Part shown: piece after piece, positions 50,337-64,000 of the stretch
Numbering within the stretch: the first letter of the stretch is position 1
Layout: every line of letters begins with the position of its first letter
Source of the DNA: Janthinobacterium agaricidamnosum
Lineage (GTDB): Bacteria; Pseudomonadota; Gammaproteobacteria; Burkholderiales; Burkholderiaceae_D
Assembly: GCF_003667705.1 (NCBI RefSeq)
Contig: NZ_CP033019.1
Coordinates: 5,084,001 to 5,148,000, forward strand
DNA: 64,000 nucleotides
Direction of reading: 5' to 3'
The notes under the pieces: model-generated
Told to the model about the DNA's origin: nothing
The model's database searches: none
The model's input: the letters and a program-made list of their open reading frames with translations, nothing else
Position numbers and translations under genes: made by a program

Positions 50337-51779
50337 TTATTTTCCCGCTGCCGGGGCGGGACGCGAATACAAGTCGATGATGGTGCTGATCCCATCCTGG
50401 CATACGGAACAGAAGGTCTCGCTGCGGTCGAACATGATGCACTGCATCTCGGGACGGTAGTAGCCGGACGATTCATAGTTCGCGCCTTCGAAGGCGCCCA
50501 CCGCATGGCGCTGCGGCGCCTTCGAGAACAGCTGCTGCGTGTATGCCAGGTCGGCCTTGAACAAATCGCTCATCTCGCTTTCCGGGCGGTTGGCCGCGCG
50601 CAGGGCCGCGCGCTGCTTCTGGTATTCGCGCGCATGGCTGTCGTACGCTTCCTTCGGCCAGGGCGTCGGCAGCGGCGTGCCGGCCTTGACGTGGCTCTTC
50701 CATTTCAGCTTGGCTGGATCGCGCAGCGCCGTGGCATTCGGCTCCCACGGCTCCTGGCGCTCGCCGTTCGACTGGTAGGCCACGGGCGAAGTGTAGTACT
50801 CGTCGGCCAGGCCGGCGAAATGGTGGCCGAATTCATGCACGAACAGGTAGTTGGCCCAGTCGTTGTTCGCTGCCGCCGTGCTGAACTGGCCGAAGATGCC
50901 GCCGCCGCCGTAGGTATCGTTATTGACGAGGATTTCGATGAATTCGTACGGCGCGTACTGCGCCAGGTCGCGCAGCGCGCGGTTGTCCGTCGTCAGCACA
51001 TAGCGCTCGCTGCCGAAGATGTCGTAGCGCGTGCCCAGCGGCGAGGCGTGATGCACGCCCGTCGATGGACGCGACACGCCCGATTCCTGCGTCGGCGCGG
51101 CCATGGCCCAGACGTTGAAATCATTGGCCCGCTCGCGAAATGGCGAGACGGTAAACAGGTGCTCGGCCAATTTGCGCGCCGTCGCTTCGAACTTGCCCAT
51201 TTCGGCGGCCGTGTAGCCATCGCCCATGATCAGGAGATCGACCTTCTCGGACGAGGGGCCTTCGACACGGATCGGGATCGGCTTGACGGGCGCCGGCGGC
51301 TGCTTGCGGATCACGTCCTGCGCGGCAGGATCGACGTCGGTGCTCCACACAATGGAAAACAGGCCGCGTTCGTCGCGCTTGAGGATGCGCACGCGCACGG
51401 GCTGCTCGGGCTGCGGGAAGCGCACGGACTCCTGGAAGGCGCGCGTGGTGGTTTTCGCTTCGTCGGTGCTGGCCCACTCGCCGAAGATGGTGGAAAAGCC
51501 GCGCGAGTACAGCACCTTGCCCGACTTGATGTCGACCACTTCCAGCATATTGTTGCCGCGGTTGCTGTCATCGATGGGGCGCGCCAGGTTACCGGGCCAT
51601 GGCAGGGGCTCGACCAGCACGCGCTCGACCGCATAATGCTCGCCCAGCGCATTGCCGCTGTGCTGGTAGTCGAGGCGCATGGTGGCCGGCTGGGCTGCGT
51701 TGGCCGCTTGCGCGGCAGGGACGATGCCGGCGGCCAGCGCCAGCGCGCACAGGAAGGATCGAATCGGGATCTGCTGCAT
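50337..51779 (-). CDS. Secreted M64-family metallopeptidase
   Basis: A 480-residue exported zinc peptidase of the M64 (IgA peptidase) family. A signal peptide (IRSFLCALALAAGIVPAAQA) precedes an N-terminal beta domain (about 25-165), then the catalytic domain beginning VDLLIMGDGYTAAEMGKFEA and the zinc site HEFGHHFAGLADEYY at about residue 313. The C-terminal MQCIMFDR...FCSVCQDGI has a Cys pair. AGGA six bases upstream supports the start at 51779. It is transcribed as a single gene. Substrate is unknown; IgA cleavage applies only to the Clostridium founder. Confidence 0.88.
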   Translation of the reverse strand: MQQIPIRSFLCALALAAGIVPAAQAANAAQPATMRLDYQHSGNALGEHYAVERVLVEPLPWPGNLARPIDDSNRGNNMLEVVDIKSGKVLYSRGFSTIFGEWASTDEAKTTTRAFQESVRFPQPEQPVRVRILKRDERGLFSIVWSTDVDPAAQDVIRKQPPAPVKPIPIRVEGPSSEKVDLLIMGDGYTAAEMGKFEATARKLAEHLFTVSPFRERANDFNVWAMAAPTQESGVSRPSTGVHHASPLGTRYDIFGSERYVLTTDNRALRDLAQYAPYEFIEILVNNDTYGGGGIFGQFSTAAANNDWANYLFVHEFGHHFAGLADEYYTSPVAYQSNGERQEPWEPNATALRDPAKLKWKSHVKAGTPLPTPWPKEAYDSHAREYQKQRAALRAANRPESEMSDLFKADLAYTQQLFSKAPQRHAVGAFEGANYESSGYYRPEMQCIMFDRSETFCSVCQDGISTIIDLYSRPAPAAGK

Positions 51780-51924
51780 CTCATTCCTAACACGGTAGAA
51801 AAACGGGTAAAAGAAGCGGATTTCCGAACAAACAGCGGCGCCAGCGGCGGGCATGGAAAAATCCGGTGCGGCACATTGTAGCGACAGGAATCGGCACTGC
51901 AAAGCATCCATTTCACCCATCAGC

Positions 51925-51966
51925 TTGACCGCGCCGCGCAATCTCTTTATATTAGACTGACTAGTC
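51925..51966 (+). promoter_or_regulatory. TetR promoter with overlapping palindrome
   Basis: TTGACC (51925-51930) and TATATT (51948-51953) are spaced 17 bases apart. GACTAGTC (51959-51966) is a perfect palindrome at the expected start site, inside TTAGACTGACTAGTCGATTA. This is a typical arrangement for autorepression by the TetR protein that follows. Confidence 0.6.
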
Positions 51967-52596: not shown

Positions 52597-53807
52597 GCGC
52601 CGCCATGAAAACCCCGTCCGCGCGCATCGCCGACGTCGACGCCCTGCGCGGCTGCGCCCTGTTCGGCATTTTGGCCGTCAATATCGGCGCCTTCGCCACG
52701 CCCTGGTTCGGCCTGGGCTTGACCGATCCCGCCTTTCACGGCGGCGTCGACCGCGCCACGCATTTCCTCGTCGCGCTGCTGTTCGAGACCAAGTTCTACC
52801 TGCTGTTTTCCTTCCTGTTCGGCTACAGCTTCACCTTGCAGATGCAGGCGGCCGCGCGCGCCGACGCACCGTTCGTGCCGCGCATGCTGCGCCGGCAGGC
52901 GGGCCTGTGGCTGATCGGCGCCCTGCATGCCGTGTTCCTGTTTCATGGCGACATACTGACCACCTACGCCGTGCTGGGCATCGTGCTGCTGGCGCTGCAC
53001 CGTTGCGGCGAACGCCAGGCGCTGTGCCTGGCCCTGGTGCTCGTCGCCGTCTGCGCCGCGTTCTGGGCAGGCATGGCCTGGCTGCAAAGCCTGCAGCCGG
53101 CGGGCGACGCGGCGGACAACGCCGTGGCGATGGCACAGAAGGCGGCAGCGGCGCTGGCCGCCTACCGCGCCACGCCGGCCGCCGTCGTCAATCAGCACTT
53201 GCGCGAACTGAGCGACATCTGGATCGTCCTGCTGCTGGTGCAGGCGCCGTGCGCGCTGGCCATGTTCCTGTGCGGCCTGGCCGCCGGCAAGCGCGAAATG
53301 CTGCTGCACGCGGCCGATTATCTGCCGCTGCGCCGCCGCCTGCTGCGGGCCGGCGCGCTGGCGGGCCTGCCCGGCGCCGCCTTGTATGCGTGGACCTCCG
53401 TGTATGGCGAGAGCCAGGCATGGCAGGTGGCGGGACTGGCCGTCGGCTTGGCGAGCGCGCCGCTGCTGGCGGGCGCCTACCTGGCATGCGCGCTGACCCT
53501 CTTCGAACGGCTGCGCGACGGCACGCTGTTTGCGCTGCTGGCCGATACGGGCCGCATGGCCCTGTCGAACTACCTGCTGCAGTCAGCCGTCTGCGCCTGG
53601 CTGTTCCTCGCGTATGGCGCACGCTTGATGGGCAGCGTCTCGCCGCTCGGCGCACTGGCGCTGGCCCTCATCATCTTCAGCCTGCAGCTGCCCCTGAGCC
53701 GCTGGTGGCTGCGCGGCCACGCCTATGGCCCCGTCGAATGGCTGCTGCGGGCCCTGACGATCGCCGCGTGGCCGCGCTGGCGGCGCGCCAGTGCAAGCTA
53801 CTTGTAG
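52593..53807 (+). CDS. DUF418-domain membrane protein (YeiB-like)
   Basis: A 404-residue integral membrane protein with about ten spans. The N-terminus RIADVDALRGCALFGILAVNI and the block FETKFYLLFSFLFGYSFTLQMQ are the DUF418/YeiB signature, related to acyltransferase-3-like proteins. The C-terminal DUF418 part includes TGRMALSNYLLQSAVCAWLF and a typical W(L/W)RGHAYGPVEWLLR. It is controlled with the TetR gene that overlaps it. Function is unknown in the family; transport or envelope modification has been proposed. Its end overlaps the opposing cyanophycinase gene by 10 bases. Confidence 0.85.
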   Translation: MSAAMKTPSARIADVDALRGCALFGILAVNIGAFATPWFGLGLTDPAFHGGVDRATHFLVALLFETKFYLLFSFLFGYSFTLQMQAAARADAPFVPRMLRRQAGLWLIGALHAVFLFHGDILTTYAVLGIVLLALHRCGERQALCLALVLVAVCAAFWAGMAWLQSLQPAGDAADNAVAMAQKAAAALAAYRATPAAVVNQHLRELSDIWIVLLLVQAPCALAMFLCGLAAGKREMLLHAADYLPLRRRLLRAGALAGLPGAALYAWTSVYGESQAWQVAGLAVGLASAPLLAGAYLACALTLFERLRDGTLFALLADTGRMALSNYLLQSAVCAWLFLAYGARLMGSVSPLGALALALIIFSLQLPLSRWWLRGHAYGPVEWLLRALTIAAWPRWRRASASYL

Positions 53808-55051
53808 CGGTACAGCGGCTGGCGCAGCTGGATGGGGCGGATGTCGAGGCGCAGCTTGAGCACCGAATACGCTTCCGCCTCGGTCGAGCTGTAGCCGACG
53901 CTGTTGACCGTTTTACTGAAGCGGAACTCGAAACCCAGCTCCGGGTACGGGTCGCGCGGGTTGCCGAAGGCGATGCCGATGGCTTCCTGCTGCGCGTTGT
54001 CGATCAGGTTGCCCATCAGGTCGAGCACGGCGTTGTTGCCGAGGATATCGTTGGTGAACACGGGCTCGCGCATGTCGGGCTGGTTCGGATCGAGCTTGTT
54101 GTCGGCCTTGTCCGGCGAGGGCGTAAACACGCGCGTGACGAGGTTGAATTTGTCGCCCCGGTCCAGATAGCTGATGGCAGCATTGCTGATATTGAAATTT
54201 TTCACGCCGCGGTCGCTGATGGCGCCCGACAGGTCGATCAGCAGGGCGCCGCTGTAGCCGATCACTTCCACGTCGCGCATGGCGTCGACCACCATGGCGC
54301 TGTTTTCATCGATACCCAGTCCCAGGTGATAGCCTTTTTTCAGCATCACGGGAATCATGCGCGCAAAGCGCCCGCGCACCAGCAGATGCTGGTCCACAAA
54401 AACGTCGCTGCCGATGAAGCCCAGTCCGGGCGCGATCTCGCGGCCATCCGTGACGCCCATCTTGAGCATGTCGAGCACGGGTTTGGCATCGTAGAACATG
54501 GTCGTGCTCATGATGGCCGCGCCGGCGCTGGAGCCGGCGATCACGCCGCCGTTGCGGTAGACCGACCAGATGGCTTCCAGCGCGGCCGTACGGCTGCCGT
54601 CCGGGCGCAGCAACGCTTGCGTGATGCGCCCCTGGTCGCCGCCGGCAAAATAGATGCCGGTGGCCGACTTGATCTGCGTGACGATGGCCGGATCTTCGGC
54701 CGCCTTGCGGTAATCGCGGTTGGCCAGCTTGACGGCCAGCGGCACGAAAAAGGCGTCCGCACCATATTGATTGAGCTTCCTGATGATGCTTTCACCCGAT
54801 TTTTCCGGGTTCATCGCGGCCGAGGCCAGCACGGCGATGCGCGCGCCCGGACCGCCCGACAACTTGACGATGCGCTGCCACACTTCGGCATTGTCGGCGC
54901 GCAGGCCGCCGCCGATGATGACGAGCGTACCCTGCGGCGCGCTGCCGATGGCGCTGCCGCCGGGCGCCGCCACGGCATGGAAGCTGCACAATGCCAGCGC
55001 GAACAGCAGCGCGGCGCAAAAGGTGTGGTACCGGATTGAGAATAATTTCAT
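53798..55051 (-). CDS. Exported cyanophycinase (S51 family)
   Basis: A 417-residue serine peptidase of the cyanophycinase family, which cuts the Asp-Arg polymer cyanophycin to beta-Asp-Arg dipeptides. A signal peptide (YHTFCAALLFALALCSFHAVA) marks it as secreted, as in CphE-type enzymes. The nucleophile elbow is GGVIAGSSAGAAIMSTTMF (Ser about residue 172), then DVFVDQHLLVRGRFARMIPV with the His, and GLGIDENSAMVV. Glycine-rich LVIIGGGLRADN opens the fold. AAAGG supports the start at 55051. It is last in a unit with a TonB receptor and an RpiR regulator, facing a dipeptide hydrolase and a transporter, which supports use of external cyanophycin. Confidence 0.85.
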   Translation of the reverse strand: MKLFSIRYHTFCAALLFALALCSFHAVAAPGGSAIGSAPQGTLVIIGGGLRADNAEVWQRIVKLSGGPGARIAVLASAAMNPEKSGESIIRKLNQYGADAFFVPLAVKLANRDYRKAAEDPAIVTQIKSATGIYFAGGDQGRITQALLRPDGSRTAALEAIWSVYRNGGVIAGSSAGAAIMSTTMFYDAKPVLDMLKMGVTDGREIAPGLGFIGSDVFVDQHLLVRGRFARMIPVMLKKGYHLGLGIDENSAMVVDAMRDVEVIGYSGALLIDLSGAISDRGVKNFNISNAAISYLDRGDKFNLVTRVFTPSPDKADNKLDPNQPDMREPVFTNDILGNNAVLDLMGNLIDNAQQEAIGIAFGNPRDPYPELGFEFRFSKTVNSVGYSSTEAEAYSVLKLRLDIRPIQLRQPLYRYK

Positions 55052-55213
55052 GATGCCTTTCGAATACAAGGAAAGGGGCGCGCACTTGTTGATACCGGCG
55101 CGCGCCCTTGCTGCCAAAACTGCTGCCTGCCACCCAACTGCATCGAACTACGATACTACTTGCCGCATATGACAGCGTTGTTGCGCTATCTCCACGCTTC
55201 TATGTAAAACTGC

Positions 55214-57973
55214 TTACTTGAAGCTGTAATTGGCGCTGGCGTAGAAGCGCCGGCCGCGCGGGTCGGCGTAGCTGGGGTCATAGCCGGACAGGAAGAAAAA
55301 TGCCTGGTTCGAGTATGGCGGACTGGTATTGAACAGATTCTGTATGCCGGCGCGCAGCTTGAACTGCTGGCTGACCGCATACGCGCCCGACATGTCCCAC
55401 AGCGTGTAGGCCTTCACGCGGTTCGGCTTGACCACGCTGCCGTCGTCCGTGTTGATGGCCGAGTTCTGGTCATCGTAGCCGCTCGAATACGTGTTCGACA
55501 GGCTGGCCGAATACGGGCCATTGTCCCAGTCGAGGGTGATCGTATGGCGCCAGCGCTGCACCACGCCGTCCGTGACGAACTTGTTCAGATTGCTGATGAA
55601 GACATCGCCAGGGCTGGTCTGGATTTTTGAGCCGAGCACATAGGTGCCGCTCAGATGTCCGCCAAAGCGTCCCCACGCCGTTTTCACGCCATGCAGGTCG
55701 GCCGTGATATCGATGCCCGAGGCTTTTTGCGCACCGCGGTTTTCCTTGCGCAGCTCGATGTAGCGGATTCCATTGTCTTCGTCGCGGTGTACGAGATTGC
55801 CGTACTTGGACAGGTTGGACAGGATGATGTCGTCGCCGATTTCGCTGATCAAATCCGTGCGCCTGATGTTCCAGTAGTCGGCACTGAAGGTCCAGTGCTG
55901 GCCGGGCTCGAGCACCACGCCGGCCGTGAACTGGCGGCTGCGCTCCGGTTTCAGCTTGTCGTTGCTGTAGCGGCGCGTACGCCAGTTGTCGGCGCAGACG
56001 GAGTAGTCGTTGTTCTCGGCTTCGCAGTACACGGGATCAGGCAGGGTCGCCGTCTGGCTGTAGACAGTGGGCCGATGCAGGTCCGACATCGACGGCGCGC
56101 GGAAGCCCTTGCCGGCCGAGGCGCGCAGCAGCACCTCCTTGCTGGGCATGTAGGTCAGGCCGATCTTCGGACTGAGGGCGCCGCCCACTTGCTGGTAATG
56201 GTCATAGCGGCCGGACAGCTGCGCCTGCCATTGCTTGCTAAACGGCAATAGCAATTCACTATAGATGGCCTGCACGTTGCGGCTGTCGCTGGTGGCCACG
56301 CCGCCTTCGGGCGCGTCATCGTTGGTGATGTTACCGCTCATTAGCAATGCGGATGGCCGGAAATCCGTGCGCTCGCGCCGCACTTCGCCGCCCACCGCCA
56401 ACGCCATGTCGCCGCCGCCCATGGACATCAAGGCACGCGACACCTTGAAATCGAGCGCATCCATGACGCCGCGCGCGTGCCGCACTTCGTCGTTGACCTG
56501 GATGCTCTCGAGCAGCGCCTTGCCCGCCGCACTGGAGGGGCCGAAGGGATTGATGGTGCCATCCGTGATGCCCTTTTGTAGCTGGTCTGCCAGGAGGTAG
56601 CCGTGCGTGTCCTTGTCCCTGACCACATTGACACTGTGATTCAAGCCCACGTCGTAATCCCAGCCGCCCACGGTGCCGGTGGCGCCCACCACGTAACGCT
56701 GGCTTTCGCTGGTCAATTCGCTGGTGCGCATGCCCGCTTCGTTCAGGCGGATGCGCAGGGCCAGCGTGCCGGTCAACCCGGCAGCGTTCAGCTGCGGCAC
56801 CATGCTGGCGTCGATTTCGCCATCCGGCCGCGCTGTCGATCCCACGTAATAGCTGCGCGAGCGGCTCAGCGCCACCTCCGCATACAATTGGTGATCGTTA
56901 TTCAGTTTCAGCACGCCGCGCGTGAGCAGGTTCTGCTTGTCCGTTTTCGGATACAGCTCGGTGTCGCCCATGTAGTTATAGGTACACGCATCGACGCCGC
57001 CCGTGCCGGCAGGCAGGTACACATTGGCCGGTCCGCTGCAGCCAGGAATCGACAGATTAATCAGGCGATTCGTGATCGGCTGGCCATTGAGCAGGAAGCC
57101 CTGCTCCTGCAGGTAGTCGCGCTGGTCGCTGGAGAGGCGGATATTTGCCGGACTGGTGTAACTGGACAGCAAATGGCCGAGGCGTTCCGGCACCTGCAGG
57201 TGCGGAATGAACTTGCGCTGCGAGGTGCTCAGACGGTCGGTTTTTTGCAGGTCGACCACGGCAAAGATATTGTAGCCATCCGTGGCCAGGTCGCCCGTGC
57301 CGGCCGTGATGCTGGCCGTGCGCTTGCCGGCGCCGCCTTCCTGCGTGCCGCTGCCGTAGGCGTTCAGCTCCACGCCCTGGTAATCCTTGCGCGTAATAAA
57401 ATTGATGACGCCGCCGATGGCGTCCGTGCCGTACAGGGCCGAGGCGCCATCGAGCAGCACTTCCACACGCTGCAGGGCGGCGGCGGGAATGTTATTGAGG
57501 TCCACGCCCGCATCGTCGCCGGGCGAGGCAAAGTTGGCCATGCGCCGGCCATTGAGCAGCACCAGGGTCGACGAGGTGCCCACGCCGCGCAGGTTGGCGC
57601 TGTTGAAGCCGCGCTGGTCGCCGCCCACGTTGATGCTGACGCCATCGGTCAGGCCGCCCACGTTGGCCGACACGCGCGCCATCAGCTCGGCCGCCGTCGT
57701 CACGCCCGCCTTTTCGATCTCGGCCCGCGTGATGATCTGCACGGGCAGCGCCGTCTCCGACTCCAGCCGCTTGATGGCCGACCCCGTGATTTCCACGCGC
57801 TGCATTTTTTTCGGCGCCGGCTCCACATCCGGCCCCTGCTCTTGCGCCTGCGCGCCGCCGGCCAGCATGCCCAGCGCCGCCGACACGCTCAGGGCCCCCA
57901 GCGCCAGCCGCACGCCTTGCGCCAGCACCGATTCGCGCGGCAAGGAGCCGCCGTCCTGTTTTTTCATCTGCAT
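55214..57973 (-). CDS. TonB-dependent receptor, probable cyanophycin-product importer
   Basis: A 919-residue outer-membrane receptor. After a signal peptide ending near GGAQAQ there is a TonB-box-like QRVEITGSAIKR, the plug (ALPVQIITRAEIEKAGVTTA, GVGTSSTLVLLNGRRMANFA, VEVLLDGASALYGTDAIGGVINF) and a large barrel ending ASANYSFK. It has no STN domain, unlike the siderophore receptor at 9356, and belongs to the class used for peptides and sugars. The start at 57973 is chosen from GGGGAGA seven bases upstream. It lies between the RpiR gene (32 bases upstream) and the cyanophycinase gene, so dipeptides or short cyanophycin pieces are the likely cargo (inference). Confidence 0.88.
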   Translation of the reverse strand: MQMKKQDGGSLPRESVLAQGVRLALGALSVSAALGMLAGGAQAQEQGPDVEPAPKKMQRVEITGSAIKRLESETALPVQIITRAEIEKAGVTTAAELMARVSANVGGLTDGVSINVGGDQRGFNSANLRGVGTSSTLVLLNGRRMANFASPGDDAGVDLNNIPAAALQRVEVLLDGASALYGTDAIGGVINFITRKDYQGVELNAYGSGTQEGGAGKRTASITAGTGDLATDGYNIFAVVDLQKTDRLSTSQRKFIPHLQVPERLGHLLSSYTSPANIRLSSDQRDYLQEQGFLLNGQPITNRLINLSIPGCSGPANVYLPAGTGGVDACTYNYMGDTELYPKTDKQNLLTRGVLKLNNDHQLYAEVALSRSRSYYVGSTARPDGEIDASMVPQLNAAGLTGTLALRIRLNEAGMRTSELTSESQRYVVGATGTVGGWDYDVGLNHSVNVVRDKDTHGYLLADQLQKGITDGTINPFGPSSAAGKALLESIQVNDEVRHARGVMDALDFKVSRALMSMGGGDMALAVGGEVRRERTDFRPSALLMSGNITNDDAPEGGVATSDSRNVQAIYSELLLPFSKQWQAQLSGRYDHYQQVGGALSPKIGLTYMPSKEVLLRASAGKGFRAPSMSDLHRPTVYSQTATLPDPVYCEAENNDYSVCADNWRTRRYSNDKLKPERSRQFTAGVVLEPGQHWTFSADYWNIRRTDLISEIGDDIILSNLSKYGNLVHRDEDNGIRYIELRKENRGAQKASGIDITADLHGVKTAWGRFGGHLSGTYVLGSKIQTSPGDVFISNLNKFVTDGVVQRWRHTITLDWDNGPYSASLSNTYSSGYDDQNSAINTDDGSVVKPNRVKAYTLWDMSGAYAVSQQFKLRAGIQNLFNTSPPYSNQAFFFLSGYDPSYADPRGRRFYASANYSFK

Positions 57974-58005
57974 AGTCATTCTCCCCGGATGTTGATGCCT
58001 GATTT

Positions 58006-59088
58006 TTATAATGATTTTGGGACTGCCTTGCGTTGCTTTGAAGCTGTTTTCCGCGCGCCTTGCACGCCATGTTCGCCGCCATACAGATAGGCGGAGATGA
58101 CTTCGCTCAAGCGGGCCGCTTTTTCTACGTTCTTCCTGTTCGATACCATCAGCGCCACGGCCAGCGCCTCGATCATGGCCAGCGCCGTGCTGGCGCTGCT
58201 GGGCAGGACGGGATGCGTGCTTTGCGCATACAGCGCGTGGTCGGCCAGTTCGCCCAGGGGCGACGCGGGCGAGTCGGTGAGCGCCACGATGCAGGCGCCG
58301 CGGTCGCGCGCGAAGCTGGCCAGGCCGATGCAGTCGAGCGTGTAGCGGGGGAACGAGATCACCACGAGCACGTCCTGCGCCGTCAGGTTGACCAGGTGAC
58401 CGGCCGCCACTTCCGAGCCGCCGATGCCCACCACATCCACCACGTGCGGGCAAAACGGCTGCAGATGCTGCACCAGCATGCCCGCCAGGTTGGCCGACAG
58501 GCCGAAACCCATCACGTACACGACCTTGGCGCGCGTCAGGCGACGCACCACGGCCAGCATGGCGGGCGGCGACAGGGCATCGGACGTGGCGGCGATGTTC
58601 GCGGCCGCATATTCCAGGCTTTCCGTGATGGGCGAGGTGGCGCGCGCGCGCCGTTCTATCGTGCGGCGCAGTTTGTCGACCGGCTGCAGCAGCGATTGCA
58701 GGGTTTCGGCCATGGCGCCGCGCATGGCCGAGTAATTCTTCTGACCGATATCGCGCGCGAAGCGACTGATGGTGGCCGTCGACACCTGGCAGCTGTCGGC
58801 CAGTTCCTCGATGCCCAGCGCCGTCACGCGCATCTGGTTGCGCAGCAGGTAATCGGCGATCTGCCGCTGCGAAGCCGAGCCGCCGGCCAGCACGTGCATC
58901 AGCGCCTGCCCCAGCGGCGATTGCGCGAAGGCGGCATCGGGCGACGCCAGCGTGGTGGCAAGTGGCGTGGGGGCGCTGCTTCTGGCAGGACTGGCGGATG
59001 CTCTCATATCACTGGCGGCCTGTATTCTTGGGCACTGCTGATCACTGGCGGAGGGGGAAATCGGGTCGCTGGAACTTACTGTACTCAT
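58006..59088 (-). CDS. RpiR/MurR-family transcriptional regulator
   Basis: A 360-residue regulator with an N-terminal RpiR HTH (QRQIADYLLRNQMRVTALGI, EELADSCQVSTATISRFARD) and a C-terminal SIS domain (AKVVYVMGFGLSANLAGMLV, DVLVVISFPRYTLDCIGLAS). SIS domains in this family usually bind phosphosugars, but in amino-acid clusters other effectors occur. The first 60 residues are Ser/Ala/Pro-rich and the start is uncertain (59088 or 59007). It is divergent from the M14 hydrolase gene and likely controls both directions. Confidence 0.87.
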   Translation of the reverse strand: MSTVSSSDPISPSASDQQCPRIQAASDMRASASPARSSAPTPLATTLASPDAAFAQSPLGQALMHVLAGGSASQRQIADYLLRNQMRVTALGIEELADSCQVSTATISRFARDIGQKNYSAMRGAMAETLQSLLQPVDKLRRTIERRARATSPITESLEYAAANIAATSDALSPPAMLAVVRRLTRAKVVYVMGFGLSANLAGMLVQHLQPFCPHVVDVVGIGGSEVAAGHLVNLTAQDVLVVISFPRYTLDCIGLASFARDRGACIVALTDSPASPLGELADHALYAQSTHPVLPSSASTALAMIEALAVALMVSNRKNVEKAARLSEVISAYLYGGEHGVQGARKTASKQRKAVPKSL

Positions 59089-59105
59089 ATCAAAAAGAAA
59101 ACTCA

Positions 59106-59163
59106 ACAAATATTTGTAAAAGGATTTTCATTGATTTACTTCGTGAAAATATTGCTACATAAT
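59106..59163 (+). promoter_or_regulatory. Divergent control region with palindromes and rightward promoter
   Basis: ACAAATATTTGT (59106-59117) is a perfect 12-base palindrome. ATTTTCA (59124-59130) and TGAAAAT (59144-59150) are an inverted repeat. TTTACT (59135-59140) and CATAAT (59158-59163), 17 bases apart, form a possible promoter for the hydrolase-transporter pair. The inverted repeat brackets the -35, so a repressor there would block transcription. RpiR is the obvious candidate. Confidence 0.5.
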
Positions 59164-59182
59164 CGACCGGAATCCATCAACC

Positions 59183-60343
59183 ATGCACCTTTTCGGGGCG
59201 CCCACCATGCAAGTACAGCAGCATTCCATCTCCACCGCGCACGCCAGCATGTCATGCCAATTGAGCAGCTTCCACTTCGGCACCGCGGCCGCCACCAGCT
59301 GCAGCGGCAAGAAGGTCTACATCCAGGCGGCCCTGCACGCGGACGAGGTACCGGGCATGCTGGTGTCGCAATTTTTGCGCCGCGAACTGCTGGCGCTGGA
59401 AGCGGCCGGCAAGGTGCACGGCGAAATCATCCTGGTGCCGGCCGCCAACCCGATCGGCCTGGCGCAAGCCATCCATGGCGCGCCGTTCGGCCGTTTCGAC
59501 CTGACCACCGGCATCAACTTCAACCGCGCCTACCGCCACGTGGCCGATGAATTGAAAACCACGCTCGATGGCCAGCTGGGGCAGGATGCGCAAGCCAACG
59601 TGGCGCTGATACGCGAGCACGCGCGCGCCGCCGTCGCCGCCTGGCAGCCGGGCACGGATGCGGAGACGCTGAAGAAAACCCTGCTGGGCATGGCCATCGA
59701 CGCCGACATCGTGCTCGACCTGCATTGCGATAACGAGGCAGCCCTGCACATCTATACCGGCACGCCGCTGGCGGCGCAGATCGCGCCCCTGTCCGCGCTC
59801 CTGGGTGCGCGCGCCGTGCTGCTGGAACTGGCAGCCGGCGAAGAGCCGTTCGACGAAGCCTGCAGCCGCTTGTGGTGGGATCTTGACGCGCACTTCGGCG
59901 GCCGCTATCCGATTCCCGCCGCCTGCCTGTCGACCACCGTCGAACTGCGCGGCGAGGTGGAGGTGAGCTACGCCCTGGCCGAACGCGACGCCGCCGCCCT
60001 GCTGCGCTTTCTCGCCATCGAGGGCGTGCTGGACATCGCCGGCGCCGGCGACGACCTGCCCGCGCCGCAATGTACGCCAACGCCGCTGGCGGGCGTGGAA
60101 CCGATTCTCGCGCCGCATCACGGCGTGCTGGTCTACCTGCGGGAAATGGGCGACGTATTGGCCACCGGCGACGCGGTGGCCGACCTGATCGACCCCGTCA
60201 GCGGCGAGACGACAACCTTGCGCTGCACGGTCGCCGGCGTCTTTTTTGCGCGCAGCGCCCACCGCCACGTCCTGCGCGGCATGAACGTCGGCAAGGTCGC
60301 AGGCAGCATCGCCTTCCGCGGCGGCAGCCTGTTGAGCCAATAA
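59183..60343 (+). CDS. M14-family zinc hydrolase, candidate cyanophycin dipeptide hydrolase
   Basis: A 386-residue member of the succinylglutamate desuccinylase/aspartoacylase (M14) family. Zinc ligands are His52 and Glu55 (AALHADEVPG) and His181 (IVLDLHCDNEA), with a candidate catalytic Glu254 in TTVELRGEVEVSY. The C-terminal third is a lipoyl-like beta domain (HHGVLVYLREMGDVLATGDAVADLID). It has no signal peptide and so is cytosolic. I recall that an enzyme of this class, CphZ, hydrolyses beta-Asp-Arg in cyanophycin clusters; this gene would fill that step. The start may be 59183 or the Met at 59207. The transporter gene begins immediately after its stop. Confidence 0.8.
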   Translation: MHLFGAPTMQVQQHSISTAHASMSCQLSSFHFGTAAATSCSGKKVYIQAALHADEVPGMLVSQFLRRELLALEAAGKVHGEIILVPAANPIGLAQAIHGAPFGRFDLTTGINFNRAYRHVADELKTTLDGQLGQDAQANVALIREHARAAVAAWQPGTDAETLKKTLLGMAIDADIVLDLHCDNEAALHIYTGTPLAAQIAPLSALLGARAVLLELAAGEEPFDEACSRLWWDLDAHFGGRYPIPAACLSTTVELRGEVEVSYALAERDAAALLRFLAIEGVLDIAGAGDDLPAPQCTPTPLAGVEPILAPHHGVLVYLREMGDVLATGDAVADLIDPVSGETTTLRCTVAGVFFARSAHRHVLRGMNVGKVAGSIAFRGGSLLSQ

Positions 60344-61750
60344 ATGTCACAAAAAAGCGCCATGAGAACATTCAAGCTTCCCAATACCTTCGTCCTGCTG
60401 TGCGCCATCCTGGCCATGATCGCCCTGGCGACCTGGCTGGTGCCGGGCGGGAAATTCGACACCCAGCTGGTCAACGGCAAGCAGCTGATCATCCCCGGCA
60501 CGTTTCATTACGTAGCCAACAAGCCGCAGGGACTGGCCGCGCTGATGATGGCGCCCATCAAGGGCTTCGTCGACGCCAGCCTGATCATCGGCTTCGTGCT
60601 GATCGTCGGCGGCGCCTTCGCCGTGCTGCAAAAAACGGAAGCCTTCGACTCGCTGATCAAGGCCATCGCCAAGGCCCATACCAGTTCGCGCTTCGTGCGC
60701 GCCGCCATCATCCCCGTCTTTTTCACGATGTTTTCGCTGGGCGGCGCCACCTTCGGCATGAACGAGGAAGCGATTCCCTTCATCCTGATCTTCGTGCCGC
60801 TGGCCCTGGCCCTGGGCTACGACACCATCACGGGCGTGTCGATACCCTTCATCGGCTCGCAGGTGGGCTTTTCCGCCGCCTTTTTAAATCCGTTCAACGT
60901 CGGCATTGCGCAGGGCATTGCCGGCGTGCCGATCTTTTCCGGCATCGGCTACCGCCTGATCGTGTGGGCCATCGCCACTGCCGTCAGCATCGTGTTTTTG
61001 ATGTGGTATGCGGCGCGCATCAAGCGCCATCCGGAAAAAAGCCCGACCTACCTGCTCGATATCGAAAAGCGCAGCGAACATTCGATGGACCTGGACAGCT
61101 TTGCCGGCATGACGCGCACGCACCGCGCCGTGCTGTGGATCTTCATGGCGACCTTGCTGACGATGGTCGTCGGCGTCGTCAAGTACGACTGGTTCATCGA
61201 TGAAATCGCCGCGTTGTTCCTGGTGATGGCCATCATCGTCGGCCTGGTCGGCCGGCTCGACATGGACAGCCTGGTCGCCTCCTTCGTGCAGGGCGCGCGC
61301 GACATGGTCAGCGTGGCGCTGGTCATCGCGCTGGCGCGCGGCACCATGATCCTGGCGCGCGACGCGCAGATCATCGACACCATACTGCATGCATTGACGC
61401 CCCTGGTGGCCTCGTCGAGCCCCGTCTTCGCCGCGCAAAAGATGTTCTTCATGCAGTCGGTGATCAACTTCTTCATCCACTCGGGCAGCGGCCAGGCGGC
61501 GCTGACCATGCCCATCATGGCGCCGCTGGCCGACCTGGTCGGCGTGACGCGCCAGACGGCCATCCTGGCCTTCCAGTTCGGCGAATTCACCACGCCGATG
61601 ATCCCCACGTCCGGCATCACCGTCGGCGTGCTGGCGCTGGCGCGCGTGCCCTGGATCACGTGGGCCAAATGGATGATCCCGCTGCAGCTGATCTACCTGG
61701 TGCTGGCGCTGCTGCTCTTGATTCCGCCCTGCCTGATGCACTGGCAGTGA
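60344..61750 (+). CDS. YfcC-family (ArcD-like) amino-acid/dipeptide permease
   Basis: A 468-residue inner-membrane transporter with about 12 spans. It matches E. coli YfcC along its length: LATWLVPGGKFDTQ, FSLGGATFGMNEEAIPFILIFVP, IGSQVGFSAAFLNPFNVGIAQG, and VINFFIHSGSGQAALTMPIM with APLADLVGVTRQTAILAFQFG. Family members are basic C4-dicarboxylate or arginine/ornithine-type permeases. It directly follows the M14 hydrolase and probably brings in the dipeptide or its amino acids. A Met at 60362 is an alternative start. Confidence 0.88.
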   Translation: MSQKSAMRTFKLPNTFVLLCAILAMIALATWLVPGGKFDTQLVNGKQLIIPGTFHYVANKPQGLAALMMAPIKGFVDASLIIGFVLIVGGAFAVLQKTEAFDSLIKAIAKAHTSSRFVRAAIIPVFFTMFSLGGATFGMNEEAIPFILIFVPLALALGYDTITGVSIPFIGSQVGFSAAFLNPFNVGIAQGIAGVPIFSGIGYRLIVWAIATAVSIVFLMWYAARIKRHPEKSPTYLLDIEKRSEHSMDLDSFAGMTRTHRAVLWIFMATLLTMVVGVVKYDWFIDEIAALFLVMAIIVGLVGRLDMDSLVASFVQGARDMVSVALVIALARGTMILARDAQIIDTILHALTPLVASSSPVFAAQKMFFMQSVINFFIHSGSGQAALTMPIMAPLADLVGVTRQTAILAFQFGEFTTPMIPTSGITVGVLALARVPWITWAKWMIPLQLIYLVLALLLLIPPCLMHWQ

Positions 61751-62827: not shown

Positions 62828-64000
62828 ATGACTGATCAATTCTCCAAAAAGGGCGAAGCCTGGTCGGCCCGGTTTTCCGAACCGGTCTCGGACCTCGTCA
62901 AGCGCTACACAGCTTCTGTATTTTTTGACAAGCGCCTGGCGCTGTTCGACATCGAAGGTTCGCTGGCCCATGCGGAAATGCTGCATGCGCAAGCCATCAT
63001 CAGCCCGGCCGACTACGCGGAAATCCAGCGTGGCATGGCGCAAATTTCGCAGGAAATCGCCGCCGGCCAGTTCGAATGGCTGCTGGACCTGGAAGATGTC
63101 CACCTGAATATCGAAAAACGCCTGACCGAACTGGTGGGCGATGCGGGCAAGCGCTTGCACACGGGCCGTTCGCGCAACGACCAGGTGGCCACCGACATCC
63201 GCCTGTACGTGCGTTCCGCCATCGACGACATCAGCGCCCTGCTGGCGACGTTGCGCAGCGCGCTGACGGACCTGGCCGAGCAGCATGCCGACACCATCAT
63301 GCCGGGCTTCACCCACATGCAGGTGGCCCAGCCGATCACTTTCGGCCACCACATGCTGGCGTATGTCGAAATGTTCGGCCGCGACGCCGAGCGCATGGCC
63401 GACTGCCGCAAGCGCGTCAACCGCCTGCCGCTGGGCGCCGCCGCCCTGGCCGGCACCACCTTCCCCATCGACCGCCTGCGCGTGGCAAAAACGCTGGGCT
63501 TTGACGACGTCTGCCACAACTCGCTCGACGCCGTCTCGGACCGCGACTTCGCCATCGAATTTTGCGCCGCCTCCGCCGTGCTGATGATGCACGTGTCGCG
63601 CATGGCCGAAGAGCTGGTGATCTGGATGAGCCCACGCATCGGCTTCATCGACATCGCCGACCGCTTCTGCACCGGCTCGTCGATCATGCCGCAAAAGAAA
63701 AACCCGGACGTGCCGGAACTGGCGCGTGGCAAGACGGGCCGCGTCTACGGCCACCTGATTGGCCTCTTGACCCTGATGAAAGGCCAGCCGCTGGCCTACA
63801 ACAAGGACAACCAGGAAGACAAGGAACCGCTGTTCGACACCGTCGATACCGTCATCGACACACTGCGCATCTTCGCCGACATGGCCGGCGGCATCACGGT
63901 GAAACCGGAAGCGATGCGCGCGGCGGCCCTGCAAGGCTACGCCACGGCGACCGACCTGGCCGACTATCTGGTCAAGAAAGGCTTGCCGTTCCGCGACGCC
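62828..64000 (+). CDS. argH: Argininosuccinate lyase (3' end outside window)
   Basis: The first 391 codons of ArgH, which splits argininosuccinate to arginine and fumarate. Motifs are the N-terminal [60 protein letters not shown], and the superfamily signature [19 protein letters not shown] at about residue 283 with the catalytic Ser. About 70 residues are missing at the right edge. The nearby arginine-yielding cyanophycin cluster is probably a chance neighbour, as argH is a core gene. Confidence 0.96.

Follow-up and report, generated by a model that had tools for sequence, protein, structure and literature searches.

A probable cyanophycin utilisation locus conserved in Janthinobacterium and other Oxalobacteraceae

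Results

The candidate locus studied here, for the utilisation of cyanophycin, a polymer that stores nitrogen, lies in a window of 64,000 nucleotides (G000:C1:5084001-5148000), the whole stretch analysed, from a complete Janthinobacterium-type genome (Janthinobacterium agaricidamnosum, a single contig of 6.36 Mb). An exported S51 cyanophycinase (CphE), a TonB-dependent receptor and an RpiR-family regulator are encoded leftward, and an M14 hydrolase and a DcuC/YfcC-type permease diverge from them (Table 1). An earlier note on this DNA had listed the five genes from the letters alone; all were found on the strands it gave, and several of the starts were corrected.

The start of CphE was corrected to 55051, from which the protein begins with a hydrophobic Sec-type leader (MKLFSIRYHTF..., read by eye). 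A hydrophobic N-terminal leader was also visible by eye in the listed CphE relatives, and the identity to named Janthinobacterium records was up to 99%. CphE scored above the cut-off of the S51 cyanophycinase model TIGR02069 (137.3 bits, cut-off 126.6). Furthermore, S197, H244, E271, D242, R248, R250 and R253 were invariant in 30 sequences; these are the Ser/His/Glu triad and the binding Asp and Arg residues named in the available text of PMC3235067, and an alignment with CphB agreed. The identity given in the note was upheld, and these features support CphE as a cyanophycinase that is predicted to cleave cyanophycin to beta-Asp-Arg. The CphE of Pseudomonas alcaligenes and P. anguilliseptica, as far as the accessible text describes it, also has an export leader, the triad and the binding Asp and Arg residues, and its 1260-bp gene is similar in length to the 417 aa found here. 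Gln243 of the window protein is as in CphB, whereas CphEal, compared by its published description, has Thr223. A PF03575 search of the window's genome found no second cyanophycinase, the exported CphE being the sole S51 protein detected. With the window CphE as query, by which distant forms could be missed, a second S51 match appeared in one of 37 same-genus genomes (G003). This genome has a further classical cyanophycin cluster (L154:5264-14043), in which two cphA-like open reading frames (ORFs) stand with an IaaA-type asparaginase gene and an S51 protein of 297 aa without a visible leader.

The M14 protein has an AstE_AspA_cat (M14-type) domain. Its closest solved relative, in sequence and in fold, was CphZ of Acinetobacter baylyi (PDB 8EIN and 8EIP), and in the fold comparison CphZ led all other solved proteins by 8 Z units. 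The predicted models of M14 and CphE were built from shallow alignments (27 and 30 rows) with mean pLDDT of 78.8 and 77.0, respectively. In the alignment E254 matched the residue that is mutated in 8EIP, and this catalytic Glu was present, together with H52, E55 and H181 (HxxE...H), in all 42 alignment rows except 3FMC. We take H52, E55 and H181 to be the zinc ligands. The tree comprised the window protein, 40 of 138 locus sequences and two PDB chains, leaving out rows with stops or spanning fewer than 300 query residues; 12 of its 40 inner branches were open and several branches were long. Identity as AstE (succinylglutamate desuccinylase) was rejected, the protein grouping with no solved AstE in sequence, tree or fold. 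In this comparison, in which the note had named grouping with AstE as a refuting outcome, it sided with 8EIN/8EIP in sequence and fold, as the note had supposed, and sequence and model support a CphZ-like cyanophycin dipeptide hydrolase. Met-9 of the listed ORF did not vary among the 27 rows of alignment A1, which makes 59207 the probable start of the M14 protein. The receptor starts at 57979 or 57973. The permease reached 385 bits with the YfcC model, below the cut-off of 500, and is therefore called YfcC-like and not a YfcC equivalog.

The five genes were then sought around 74 named CphE loci, which were found by peptide patterns of the window CphE and are hence close relatives. M14 was present in 66, the permease in 66, the receptor in 64 and RpiR in 32 of them, and all five genes with RpiR in place in 31. 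CphE, M14 and permease stood together in 66 of the 74 loci with identical orientation in all 66, a shared layout far beyond chance; CphE was alone in seven loci and accompanied by RpiR in one (at a contig edge). Among the same-genus genomes, CphE and M14 were both present in 33 of 37 and both absent from the same four, among which G022 alone (98%) exceeds 88% completeness. In a class-wide sample M14 was found in 19, CphE in 20 and both in 7 of 369 genomes (p 1.5e-5), or both in 6 of 368 without the window's own genome (p 1e-4); these p values ignore relatedness and the counts include weak matches. A divergent version (L153:1402-11815, in the genome of L061) has CphE, a receptor, a YfcC-like permease and a CphZ-like M14, with additional genes for an M20 peptidase, an AraC regulator and an arginine/ornithine succinyltransferase. 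CphE, M14, permease and RpiR were kept in Janthinobacterium sp. CG3, where the receptor match (L063:9667-9846) covered only 60 residues, as if that gene had been lost.

Two sigma-70-like promoters face away from each other between RpiR and M14. The patterns were drawn from the same loci in which they were counted, 67 including the window. The promoter upstream of M14 recurred in 59 of the 67 and its reversed pattern in none; both promoters were kept in 59, at a spacing of 28-30 bases in 57 of these and of 19 in two. The exceptions were L063 and L069 (degenerate), L084, L085 and four Undibacterium loci. The promoter scan alone gave no more than chance (1 found, 1.3 expected in shuffles). The listed RpiR ORF reaches a TTG at 59109; the RpiR start is probably 59007, because the divergent promoter lies inside this extension. 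As for the palindromes that the note had placed between the genes, one imperfect inverted repeat was confirmed, with arms at 59115-59130 and 59144-59159 overlapping the M14 promoter, and none of 6 nt or more was found in 57953-58010. Its inner arms (TTTTCA-N13-TGAAAA) were present in 25 of the 67 loci, and the repeat is therefore not tied to the conserved element as a whole. With up to two mismatches allowed, a regulon search with the promoter core gave four sites in the genome and none in the control; only the window's own site was convincing. No RpiR homologue was found in 7 of 18 genomes searched (E 1e-20); six of these seven loci keep the promoter element, which weakened RpiR as its owner, and the seventh, L069, has a degenerate one. 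In L168 and L172, too, RpiR genes accompany additional copies of CphE.

About 0.8 Mb from the window, the genome encodes two tandem cphA-family genes, which score 970 and 677 bits against a cut-off of 850. At this locus (L110:7483-12288) they adjoin genes for a cyanophycin metabolism-associated ABC transporter and a DUF1854 protein; two TonB receptors, another RpiR, an aminotransferase and an IS1595 transposase are also there, and no cyanophycinase was found at it. The cluster receptor was 28% identical to one of the cphA-side receptors and gave no match to the other; with 27% identity for RpiR, close kinship between the two sets was rejected. The note had reasoned that, with no synthetase in the window, the cluster scavenges polymer of other bacteria. 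With tandem cphA in the genome this argument fails, and the genome falls outside the category of scavenging clusters without cphA as given in the available text of PMC10206079. Among 25 same-genus genomes examined, 24 have cphA over the cut-off, and CphE accompanies it in 22 of the 24. The genome search gave no match for IaaA (Asparaginase_2), and the IadA model reached only 28.9 and 20.3 bits against its cut-off of 331. The genome also carries two AstA-family genes. The strain is thus a predicted cyanophycin producer whose only recognised S51 cyanophycinase carries an export leader, which is a puzzle.

Table 1. Positions of the genes and regulatory features of the locus (window coordinates)
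Feature	Position	Strand	Remarks
CphE-like exported cyanophycinase (S51)	53798..55051	-	417 aa from corrected start
TonB-dependent outer-membrane receptor	55214..57979	-	Pfam plug and barrel domains; substrate suggested by context
RpiR-family regulator	58006..59007	-	HTH_6 and SIS; listed ORF reaches 59109
Sigma-70-like promoter towards RpiR/receptor	59078..59106	-	TTGAGT, 17 bases, TACAGT; conserved in 59/67 loci
Sigma-70-like promoter towards M14/permease	59135..59163	+	TTTACT, 17 bases, CATAAT; conserved in 59/67 loci
Imperfect inverted repeat over M14 promoter, possible operator	59115..59159	.	16-nt arms, 75% complementary
CphZ-like M14 cyanophycin dipeptide hydrolase (predicted)	59207..60343	+	listed ORF starts 59183; probable start Met-9
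DcuC-family, YfcC-like inner-membrane permease	60344..61750	+	PF03606 347 bits; cargo suggested by context

Discussion

From the gene identities, layout, conservation, kept catalytic residues and conserved promoters, we consider a real conserved locus for the use of cyanophycin or beta-Asp-Arg the most likely explanation, much as the earlier note proposed, and give a probability of roughly 0.77 to a cyanophycin utilisation locus working through CphE, the receptor, the permease and the CphZ-like M14 protein. Exported CphE would cut cyanophycin to beta-Asp-Arg dipeptides, fragments of the polymer or scarce dipeptide would enter through the TonB receptor in the outer membrane, and the DcuC/YfcC-like permease would carry dipeptide across the inner membrane. 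In the cytoplasm the CphZ-like enzyme would split the dipeptide into aspartate and arginine, and the arginine could then enter the succinyltransferase (AST) pathway. RpiR may control one or both divergent promoters. The substrate, the cargoes of receptor and permease (presumably cyanophycin products), the regulator's ligand, the site of CphE action (extracellular or periplasmic) and the origin of the polymer are proposals that we infer from the sequences.

The topology could be different. It is possible, if doubtful, that soluble cyanophycin or oligomers enter through the TonB receptor before any cleavage and that CphE is periplasmic, with little product lost to neighbours. The Sec leader tells only of export from the cytoplasm, and the receptor gene adjoins CphE in the 64 loci that have it. 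A dipeptide of 289 Da (mass by hand) would normally pass porins, and a dedicated TonB receptor therefore suits larger fragments better. However, CphE of P. alcaligenes was active in the culture medium according to the available part of PMC3235067, and cyanophycin is poorly soluble at neutral pH, its low solubility being stated in the accessible text of PMC10206079.

The polymer could also be the cell's own, the CphA product being released by lysis or otherwise and cut by exported CphE, or being cut inside by a leaderless CphE. The tandem cphA genes, the frequent company of cphA and CphE in the genus and the single S51 protein of the genome are consistent with such recycling. However, cphA is distant from the cluster, a leaderless CphE start is hypothetical, G022 keeps cphA without CphE or M14, and the same-order genomes G037, G039, G041 and G049 have cphA over the cut-off without a CphE match, and we think recycling unlikely. 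Both this explanation and the periplasmic topology can be compatible with the utilisation locus proposed above, and the probabilities given to them need not sum to one. Going further, many Oxalobacteraceae might be producer-scavengers that make cyanophycin and keep only an exported cyanophycinase, their own TonB receptor and CphZ, the polymer serving as a shared or kin-recycled nitrogen store. We offer this as a speculation with the odds against it. A recognisable cyanophycinase occurs in 2.8% of 903 cphA1-bearing betaproteobacterial genomes according to the available text of PMC10206079; if true, the speculation would partly answer why such bacteria seem to be without one. The co-occurrence of cphA and exported cyanophycinase in Janthinobacterium bears on this scarcity, as far as that text reports it.

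Several observations weigh against a cyanophycin utilisation locus. In the fold comparison, which barely bears on residues beyond 334, the best solved S51 match of CphE was pseudo-CphB, tied with a true cyanophycinase. The M14 family of the window has Arg-Gly (R256-G257) after the catalytic Glu, while A. baylyi CphZ (8EIN) has Gly-Ser. In six Massilia/Telluria loci CphE is alone, 1.4 kb from argH. Each of their genomes has a pair of strong M14 matches at other places; both were opened in two genomes and comprised a complete five-gene cluster (L147, L149) and a lone M14 (L146, L148), and the sole place opened in a third held a lone M14 copy (L150). The receptor is missing beside CphE, M14 and permease in two loci, whose genomes both have it in another cluster (L151, L169); further complete second clusters were found in L151, L166, L167 and L169. 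Finally, none of the 18 loci opened outside the Oxalobacteraceae (13 around M14 and 4 around CphE from the class sample, and L155) had both CphE and M14 at E 1e-10, a dedicated search made because in several low-GC loci no M14 gene had appeared in the output of the ORF finder. The cluster is therefore known here only from the Oxalobacteraceae, and the co-occurrence in other genomes that the note looked for held within the family for CphE, M14, permease and receptor, and did not extend to RpiR, kept in fewer than half of the CphE loci, or beyond the family. That the true substrates are different beta-aspartyl or acylated amino acids or peptides, and the cyanophycin names misleading, would suit the pseudo-CphB match, an M14 pocket neighbourhood unlike that of CphZ at R256-G257 and a receptor and permease without known cargo, but is improbable given the TIGR02069 score, the 8 Z units by which CphZ leads and the recurrence of CphE and CphZ-like genes together in several arrangements.

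CphE, CphZ, a cyanophycin utilisation locus and a TonB receptor beside a cyanophycinase have already been published, and the combination in the window is a variant of these. The accessible text of PMC10206079 describes cyanophycinases clustered with dipeptidases, the M14 or succinylglutamate desuccinylase family acting as beta-Asp-Arg/Lys dipeptidases. For example, the "cyanophycin utilization locus" of the Bacteroidetes strain L21-Spi-D4 (Ben Hania 2017, as cited in that text), proposed to use environmental cyanophycin, likewise clusters cyanophycinase, beta-aspartyl dipeptidase and transporter, as 66 of our 74 loci do. However, as far as the L21-Spi-D4 locus is described there, the window differs in having a CphZ-like dipeptidase instead of IadA, a TonB receptor and RpiR, and a genome with cphA. 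In Citromicrobium sp. JLT1363 a TonB receptor gene is also close to a cyanophycinase gene and cyanophycin was proposed as its substrate; CphZ, permease and regulator are not named in the available part of PMC3400609, and the receptors are likened by description. Secreted or extracellular use of cyanophycin has also been suggested from genome data in the accessible parts of PMC2536512 and PMC7564069. No description of the receptor-CphE-RpiR-CphZ-permease set was met among the matches listed from the literature searched, whose reach left most subscription papers outside, and the matches listed for Janthinobacterium, Massilia, Duganella and Oxalobacteraceae contained no mention of cyanophycinase. 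Neither 8EIN nor 8EIP was mentioned in the papers searched, and AotO matched only unrelated words there. The AotO work of the CphZ paper reportedly concerns aot operons. The present locus provides candidates for a receptor in the outer membrane, a permease, a regulator and a hydrolase by which a common soil and water bacterial family could use cyanophycin, and its layout allows gene-by-gene deletion.

Other genes stand near these clusters. A glycoside hydrolase family 92 (GH92) gene (L166:14179-16491) is close to a second five-gene cluster, and ORFs that are GH92-like by their N-terminal sequence were seen near CphE or RpiR copies in L167, L168, L170 and L171. In the window, argH (argininosuccinate lyase, by its sequence; 62828-64000) adjoins the cluster and runs off the window end, with a match in 59 of the 74 CphE loci, and an M64 peptidase gene (50337-51941) near the cluster has a match in 62 of them.

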